Of a stretch of 17,863 nucleotides of DNA, positions 13,101-14,402 are shown piece by piece. Both the position numbers and the translations under genes were made by a program. Source of the stretch: Verrucomicrobiota bacterium (GTDB lineage Bacteria; Verrucomicrobiota; Verrucomicrobiia; Limisphaerales; AV2); NCBI GenBank assembly GCA_003218935.1, contig QHPA01000345.1:1-17863 (forward strand), in the 5' to 3' direction. The notes under the pieces are model-generated. The model searched no databases and was not told where the DNA came from. It saw only the letters and a program-made list of their open reading frames with translations. The number at the start of each line of letters is the position of its first letter. Positions within the stretch are counted from its first letter, which is position 1.

Positions 13101-14402
13101 ATGACCGGCTGTTCAGCACGATCGGTGACCAGTCTCTATGTCCATGTTCCGTTCTGCGCGCACAAATGCGACTATTGCGCTTTTTACTCGGAAGCTGCTC
13201 AAGGAGACCGGGTCAATCGTTACATTGCGGCGCTGATTCGGGAACTGGAACTGGTGGCCGGCGAGCTGAGGCCGCGCACCGTTTTCTACGGCGGCGGCAC
13301 GCCTTCGCTGCTCAATCTGCGGCAATGGGAGCAGGTCCTCAAAGCGATGGAGCGTCTGAACCTGCTTGGCGCGGCGGAATGGACGGTCGAATGTAATCCG
13401 GCCACCGTCTCGCTCGACAAGGCCAGGCTGCTTCGCTCATACGGCGTGAACCGAATTTCAATGGGAGTTCAGTCATTGGACGAAGGTTTGCTCGACCGCC
13501 TGGGACGGGTTCACGACCGAGCGAGGGTGTTCAAGTCGTTCGACATTCTACGTGAGGCCGGCTTCGACAACGTCAACCTTGACCTCATGTTCGCCATCCC
13601 CGGCCAGACCATGGGCATCTGGCGCGCGACCTTGACCGAAGCGCTGGCGCTGGGCAGCGAACACTTCTCCTGCTACGAAGTCATCTACGAGGAGGACACG
13701 CCGCTCTTCGCGCAGTTGCAGGCCGGCGAGTTCGACGTGGATGAGGAACTCGCCTGCGCGATGTTCGAGGAGTTGCTTGAACGCGCTTCTGCTGCAGGAT
13801 TCCGCCAATACGAAGTGGCCAACTTTGCCCGTGATGTGCGGAAGGAAAATGGAGTAATGGAGTGTTGGAGTGATGAAACATCCGTCGGACACCGCATCAA
13901 TACTTCATCACTCCGCCACTCCATCCCCGCGTTTGCCTGCCGTCACAACATCAATTACTGGCGCGGCGGCTCGTTTTACGGCCTGGGGCCGAGCGCGACG
14001 GGCTACGTGCGCGGCGTGCGGACGAAGAATTGGTCGAACACGATCCTCTACTGCGATCAGATCGAGAAAGGCCACCGGGCGATTGAATCGCGCGAGGAGT
14101 TGGCGCCGCTGGCGCGCGCCGGGGAAACGGCGGCGTTCGGCTTGCGGATGAACGCGGGCTGGCCATTCGATCAGTTCCAGCAAACGACCGGTTTCGACTT
14201 GCGCGATGAGTGGGCGGACGAAATGAGCCAATTGGTGGACCTGGAGTGGGGCTGCCTCGAGCTCGACCGCTTCAGACTTTCAAAGCAGGGATTGCGCTTT
14301 GCGGATGCCGCGGCCCAGGTGTTTTTGAGGCCGGCTCCGGGCGGAACTGGAATCGTGGCTACCGCACGGCCTCTGGAAGCCGATGTGCCCGCTTTCATTT
14401 GA
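13101..14402 (+). CDS. hemW: HemW-like radical SAM heme chaperone with an internal extra segment
   Basis: A 433-residue radical SAM protein of the HemN/HemW group. The cluster motif is C-x3-C-x2-C (Cys19, Cys23, Cys26 in PFCAHKCDYCAF). Family blocks follow: FYGGGTPSLL, ECNPATV, RISMGVQSLDEGLLDRLGRVH, NLDLMFAIPGQT, SCYEVIYEEDTPL, CRHNINYWRGGSFYGLGPSATGY and a C-terminal HemN_C region (AGETAAFGLRMNAG). HemW is thought to carry heme to target proteins rather than oxidise coproporphyrinogen; the CxxxCxxC motif with Phe and no further Cys fits HemW. Relatives usually read NFAxPG then xCRHN. Here residues 245-277 carry about 31 additional residues between NFAR and FACRHN, encoded by a palindromic repeat, with the frame kept. 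It ends convergently 16 bases from the cyclase gene. Confidence 0.93.
   Translation: MTGCSARSVTSLYVHVPFCAHKCDYCAFYSEAAQGDRVNRYIAALIRELELVAGELRPRTVFYGGGTPSLLNLRQWEQVLKAMERLNLLGAAEWTVECNPATVSLDKARLLRSYGVNRISMGVQSLDEGLLDRLGRVHDRARVFKSFDILREAGFDNVNLDLMFAIPGQTMGIWRATLTEALALGSEHFSCYEVIYEEDTPLFAQLQAGEFDVDEELACAMFEELLERASAAGFRQYEVANFARDVRKENGVMECWSDETSVGHRINTSSLRHSIPAFACRHNINYWRGGSFYGLGPSATGYVRGVRTKNWSNTILYCDQIEKGHRAIESREELAPLARAGETAAFGLRMNAGWPFDQFQQTTGFDLRDEWADEMSQLVDLEWGCLELDRFRLSKQGLRFADAAAQVFLRPAPGGTGIVATARPLEADVPAFI
13848..13871 (+). repeat. Three tandem octamers at the left edge of the hemW insert
   Basis: AATGGAGT, AATGGAGT, GTTGGAGT in direct succession, followed by GATG. The right arm of the inverted repeat shows the same period in complement (ACTCC spaced by 8). 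The octamer is read in all three frames in turn, as expected from a nucleotide-level repeat rather than a protein repeat. Confidence 0.75.
13857..13924. repeat. Palindromic element inside hemW (21-bp inverted repeat)
   Basis: Arms 13857-13877 and 13904-13924 are reverse complements at 19 of 21 positions, with one further G-T pair and one mismatch, around a 26-base loop. The left arm reads ATGGAGTG, then TTGGAGTGATGAA; the right arm ends CACTCCAT. The element coincides with the segment of HemW that is absent from ordinary family members, and it adds a multiple of three bases with no stop codon. This resembles the protein-coding palindromic elements known from Rickettsia, although the sequence itself is different. 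Confidence 0.75.

Follow-up and report, generated by a model that had tools for sequence, protein, structure and literature searches.

Results

The hemW gene of the window and its insert

The window (the whole stretch of 17,863 nucleotides analysed, contig C84) belongs to a MAG of 3.83 Mb in 546 contigs that is 82% complete (G000). The MAG is placed in Verrucomicrobiota and probably in the order Limisphaerales: almost all of its 80 named relatives carry a Verrucomicrobiota label, and some are given as subdivision 3, Pedosphaera or Limisphaerales. It harbours hemW, in which a palindromic repeat lies in frame (Table 1). The hemW product scored 240.7 bits on TIGR00539 (cut-off 205.4) and is a HemW equivalog. 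Profile searches matched Radical_SAM at residues 13-177 and HemN_C at residues 336-400, in agreement with the initial annotation of an open frame with intact domains on both sides of the repeat. H282, N283, Y286 and W287 were invariant across 40 aligned HemW. Distant HemW proteins probably have a two-residue loop at the position of the insert. The HNxxYW signature has been linked with heme binding (available text of PMC11834973).

Table 1. Features of hemW and its insert in the window.
Feature	Position	Strand	Basis
hemW, radical SAM heme chaperone, 433 aa, with the in-frame repeat inside	13101..14402	+	TIGR00539, Radical_SAM, HemN_C
Inserted codons, residues 246-273 (VRKENGVMECWSDETSVGHRINTSSLRH)	13836..13919	+	84 nt vs. 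18 nt in G002, G003 and G004; pLDDT
5' arm, three TGGAGTNN octamers at 13850, 13858 and 13866	13839..13877	+	Inverted repeat, octamer pattern
Central spacer of the palindrome	13878..13903	+	Inverted-repeat search
3' arm, degenerate NNACTCCA octamers (cleaner copies in the sister genome G001)	13904..13942	+	
HNxxYW signature (HNINYW, residues 282-287), a short way 3' of the insert	13944..13961	+	

The best PDB fold match of the window HemW was 1olt (E. coli HemN). Its AlphaFold model (40-sequence input) had a mean pLDDT of 85.9, with values below 50 over residues 248-271 and confident segments on either side. The inserted peptide is probably a disordered loop, as predicted by this model.

Build and fold of the palindrome

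The inverted repeat in hemW is imperfect: its arms (39 nt each) are 77% complementary and separated by a 26-nt spacer, and the sequence itself shows a perfect inner core of 11 bp. A palindrome had been annotated here, and one is present, although not with the clean 21-bp arms then described. The proposed octamer periodicity was confirmed, as TGGAGT occurs at each of the three positions listed for the 5' arm, and ATGGAGTNNTGGAGTG (up to 2 mismatches) was found three times in the window vs. 0.04 expected. One strand of the 93-nt element folds at -38.5 kcal/mol (z -5.1), and none of 200 shuffles was equally stable.

The octamer family consists of 6-nt paired blocks with two free, non-covarying positions between them. 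Agreement of the free dinucleotides between arms was not above chance in the 68 palindromes compared (11/93 comparisons, 17% by chance). The first free base was a purine in 333 of 354 octamer units. The free dinucleotide of TGGAGTNN showed a strong bias across several genomes: GA, GT, AA, GG, AT and GC accounted for 324 of 354. Among copies, the TGGAGT cores are fixed while the number of units and the centre of the palindrome vary.

Filled and short hemW sites among relatives

We compared 130 hemW loci, 119 of them unique, and kept 118; L192 was dropped because its halves were mapped wrongly. The loop at the insert position ranged from 6 to 237 nt, its length was divisible by three in 118/118 genes, and the commonest length was 18 nt (37/118). 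The window genome and its nearest congener G001 have a loop of 84 nt (28 residues), and the congeners G002, G003 and G004 one of 18 nt (six residues). The extra stretch that had been annotated is thus present, with 28 residues instead of about 31 and a net gain of 22 residues over the three congeners. The insert of G001 is palindromic as well.

G000, G001 and G004 formed a clade (SH-aLRT 99) whose internal fork was not resolved, and both a gain in G000/G001 and a loss in G004 fit the tree. A gain is favoured because the three congeners have short loops, and the insertion would then date from before the split of G000 and G001. As support for a recent insertion, the initial annotation had looked to uninterrupted orthologues, and these do exist in the three congeners; the copy, which is shared with G001 and older than that split, need not be recent. 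Octamer inserts in hemW of G028 and L072 sit elsewhere on the tree, where branch support is weak, and are possibly independent. No target-site duplication was recognisable at the hemW insert in comparisons with the diverged congeneric sites.

It might be supposed that the insert has taken on a role of its own, for example as an mRNA hairpin tuning hemW or as a loop affecting heme handling beside HNxxYW. The nearness of this motif, the strong RNA fold of the element and its retention in two species are in keeping with such a role, and effects of intragenic REPs are raised as speculation in the available sections of PMC3733652. We nevertheless consider it very improbable. Between G000 and G001 the insert diverged at the rate of the gene (4/84 nt vs. 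84/1149 nt in the flanks; Fisher p 0.51), three of the four changed insert codons were nonsynonymous, the loops of the congeners are short and the loop is predicted to be disordered. The insert may well be neutral.

Positions 13101-14333 of the window differed from the nearest relative (L064) at 30/735 nt before the insert and at 54/414 nt after it. This uneven divergence is perhaps due to recombination.

Dispersal of the octamer repeat

In its own genome, the three-octamer pattern (up to 2 mismatches) gave 19 matches at 10 places, 9 of them outside hemW, while the reversed control gave none. The exact triplet was present in hemW only. BLAST revealed no full-length second copy of the 93-nt element in this genome; besides the element's own reverse arm, the matches were 14-26 nt long, with E values of 0.026 or worse. 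The copies expected elsewhere in the genome were found as degenerate octamers and not as near-full-length elements. Together, the dispersal of the octamer and the palindromic insert of the nearest relative differ from what had been set as grounds for abandoning the insertion. Twelve loci of the own genome (pattern and BLAST places) were judged by eye: most appeared to be intergenic or directly 3' of a stop codon, and three (L006, L019 and L026) fell in open frames. One of these, L006:2-538 on contig C535, contains a kinase-like frame (by eye), close to the start of which lies an arm resembling the octamers (HHSTPS).

Of 146 genomes from the order, 25 contained the exact octamer triplet, as did 21 of 288 genomes in a draw from the phylum (the own genome included in both). 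G009 had 164 exact matches to the octamer pattern; 49 matches were palindromic when overlapping registers were counted, corresponding to 28 separate places by hand count (control 0). In G001, the sole exact palindromic match sits within hemW.

The hemW loop is occupied by different repeat types

In the 118 hemW genes (136,758 bases), the six strongest inverted repeats (score of at least 13) were all located in the loop, which with its margins makes up 5.9% of the bases scanned. They comprised octamer palindromes in G000, G001 and L072, a GAATGAC heptamer palindrome in G020, a CCAATGACC palindrome in L081 and a CCCTCTCCCC palindrome in G012, the last within a 237-nt insert. The L081 palindrome is perhaps a variant of the GAATGAC heptamer; its loop contains one AATGAC and the heptamer pattern has 3 matches in its genome. 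At least three repeat types occupy the hemW loop. The octamer insert of G028 had an inverted-repeat score of 11.5, and 7 of the 18 inverted repeats scoring at least 11 lay within the loop. With a stricter mismatch penalty, the L042 repeat alone passed.

The inverted-repeat score separated the loop better than fixed-window fold z-scores, which were tried and set aside: z was below -3 in 6/118 loop windows vs. 15/1644 control windows, and below -4 in 4 loop and 3 control windows, one of the four being L187, a locus without a long insert. L187 (G019) has a 15-nt loop and a strong surrounding fold (z -5.06), and its inverted-repeat score is not high. The 237-nt loop of G012 (L180), with its CCCTCTCCCC palindrome, is by far the longest of the 118. 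L046, L050 and L066 have one-armed stretches resembling TCCGC in their hemW loop.

Among the 34 loops of at least 45 nt, six folded with z below -2 and 28 had no strong hairpin; many expansions are therefore not recognisable palindromes. Such loops, the broad length range, the variable number of units in octamer arrays and the lack of another full-length copy of the 93-nt element in the own genome are what would be seen if a hypervariable hemW linker grew by local replication slippage and the palindrome had formed in place. Against this, the TGGAGT unit with inverted arms recurs elsewhere in the own genome and in other genera, and G020 has at the same hemW site a different family that is abundant in its own genome (159 GAATGAC pattern matches with up to 2 mismatches vs. 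3 in the control). On this evidence we regard growth in place as improbable.

Arrays in frame in other genes

We assembled 144 deduplicated octamer and heptamer arrays from 25 genomes, leaving out seven near locus ends. A stop-free frame extending at least 120 nt on both sides was present in 44 of them: 34 were scanned with Pfam, 3 were those of hemW and 7 were outside the scan. An array was counted as in-gene when a single Pfam match enclosed it or when it separated two matches that share a frame; the L324 array, at the end of one Pfam match, was among those counted. In total, 17/144 arrays were in frame inside well-matched genes, a figure that is not a genomic rate because pattern and convenience guided the collection. 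Three were in hemW (G000, G001 and G028). The other 14 were in a PolA-type 5'-3' exonuclease, UvrA, HrpB, a SNF2 helicase (two arrays), a sulfite reductase, two kinases, a DUF7133 protein, two PSD1 proteins, two PSCyt1-PSCyt2 linkers and a GH106 enzyme. One-sided or N-terminal arrays were excluded (L358 YidC, L224, L300, L319, L371, L292, the first array of L280, L208 and L212).

The arrays coincided with insertions in PDB alignments in the four genes that were run. Array sites also recurred: the PSD1 site in two genomes, the site after a YVMELAD-like sequence in both G028 kinases, and the PSCyt linker before NPID, which holds a heptamer array in G020 and an octamer array in G126. In L006 of the own genome, a stretch ending in NPGPLPRGEGE follows YVMELADDA near the contig end, at the place of the octamer inserts of the two G028 kinases.

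Two of the excluded frames of G020, a sulfatase (L208:163-1776) and another open frame (L212:1336-2424), have N-terminal regions that come from translation of the GAATGAC repeat (HSSFVI). These regions are signal-peptide-like and the start codons are putative.

Reading frames and capture

In 65 octamer arrays of at least 40 nt that were not counted as coding, 206/390 frames were stop-free and each array had at least one open frame. With no stop in about half of its six frames, an octamer element is easily captured. This applies to octamers; in nine heptamer arrays, 9/54 frames were stop-free and seven arrays had at least one open frame.

The survey of in-frame copies was limited to open frames by design. 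From 81 listed flank pairs, 25 were selected by length and searched for frame-broken copies, and no domain was split across frames by an array (0/25 frame-shifted pairs shared a Pfam family); in seven pairs Pfam matched both flanks, always with different families. These results bear on the idea that ribosomes bypass the element or RNA processing removes it, giving a protein without the peptide. A strong hairpin within a conserved gene would suit it, but loop length divisible by three in every hemW gene, and 25 pairs without a frame-broken captured copy (7 informative on both sides), make it exceedingly improbable.

Y1_Tnp genes and terminal tags

Y1_Tnp genes, with RAYT and IS200 types not told apart, were present in 12/12 genomes. 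None of the 30 (of 79) Y1_Tnp matches examined had an exact octamer pair nearby, and a RAYT neighbourhood is not supported by them; for one of the 30, a heptamer pair was present at a distance of about 1 kb. L268 is a possible exception, as degenerate octamers run about 100 nt from its Y1_Tnp match. In L254 and L260, Y1_Tnp matches have a CTCCGCA heptamer array no more than about 1.3 kb away. In 72 octamer arrays, the 14 nt next to the arm ends were scored for exact tags: GTAG was present in 4 (control 4) and CGTC in 7 (control 20). The octamer arrays are not enriched for terminal GTAG or CGTC tags.

Discussion

Comparison with known repeats

According to the available sections of PMC3733652, GTAG/CGTC REPs are short palindromes that lie mostly between genes and also in frame within them. 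More than half of the intragenic inserts add 20-30 residues, and the richest intragenic GTAG set is that of a verrucomicrobium, Opitutus terrae. Among the genes struck in one species or another are those for UvrA, DNA polymerase I and RNA helicases, and two Xanthomonas species have recB interrupted at nearly the same position. The PolA, UvrA and helicase arrays of this work echo the targets given in those sections. The REPs are tagged, whereas the present elements are palindromes of tandem 7-8-mers without tags (checked for the octamer arrays), and here different repeat families have made use of the same hemW loop. We consider the octamer arrays a distinct version of a known kind because of their different build and the lack of tag enrichment. 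A family of protein-coding repeats outside Rickettsia, as had been suggested from the window, agrees with the in-frame copies; it is not the first such case, as palindromic repeats translated in other bacteria have been published before (PMC3733652, same sections).

The RPEs of Rickettsia (105-146 bp) are dispersed palindromes fused in frame in conserved proteins and tolerated there, as tested for gmk (available portion of PMC2229807). The present elements are likewise dispersed palindromic stem-loops found in frame in several conserved genes. They are set apart from RPEs, as described, by the 84-nt insert, the arms of tandem short units and the Verrucomicrobiota host. The same portion of that source covers RU-1/2/3, YPAL and Correia/NEMIS, stem-loop repeats whose open frames have become joined to genes, and one such small mobile repeat that forms part of a signal peptide, a case that L208 and L212 resemble. 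The units of these repeats are longer and MITE-like, several with target-site duplications. MITEs are marked by a target-site duplication and fixed terminal inverted repeats. The present copies have fixed TGGAGT cores and a variable number of units and variable centres.

Cyanobacterial STRRs are dispersed short-unit arrays akin to the TAACTGA type. The TAACTGA heptamer arrays of Beggiatoaceae are built of short units, dispersed between genes and spread by an unknown mechanism (available text of PMC4679880). Almost all of them are direct repeats, mostly directly upstream of start codons, whereas the present ones are palindromic. Tandem repeats have been reported in Methylacidiphilum, without unit sequences in the accessible part of PMC4210602. 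A broad literature search found no report of octamer or heptamer palindromes in Limisphaerales.

Insertion, retention and significance

Most probably, a dispersed palindrome with TGGAGTNN arms inserted in the variable loop of hemW before the split of G000 and G001, and has been translated and tolerated as a disordered loop. This upholds the insertion and tolerance first put forward for hemW, on the basis of the short congeneric sites, the dispersal of the octamer and the predicted disorder. A non-autonomous palindrome would insert into genes, out-of-frame and damaging events would be lost, and permissive loops would retain copies; the hemW loop and similar loops elsewhere would have been struck more than once, by different repeat types. 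The palindrome centres differ between copies, unlike those of a simple transposed unit, and this counts against insertion of a dispersed element, as do the chance-level pairing of the free dinucleotides and the failure to find a second full-length copy in the own genome.

More tentatively, and with the balance rather against it, a dispersal process of Verrucomicrobiota for hairpins of 7-8-nt units might keep seeding new peptides into loops of core proteins, aided in the case of octamers by the open half of their frames, with unrelated families sharing the same loops. The peptide types so seeded would be WSDGVMEx and TPALQHS from octamers and HSSFVIR from heptamers. The recurrence of repair and helicase genes here and in the survey of PMC3733652 (available sections) could reflect a biased target set and not only tolerance.

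In a phylum already known for tagged intragenic REPs, these arrays form a further class of translated palindromic repeat, one with a different structure. The repeated occupation of a single hemW loop, by repeats of different types, offers a natural experiment in insertion tolerance, and the many captured copies allow the study of how non-coding repeats turn into protein segments.
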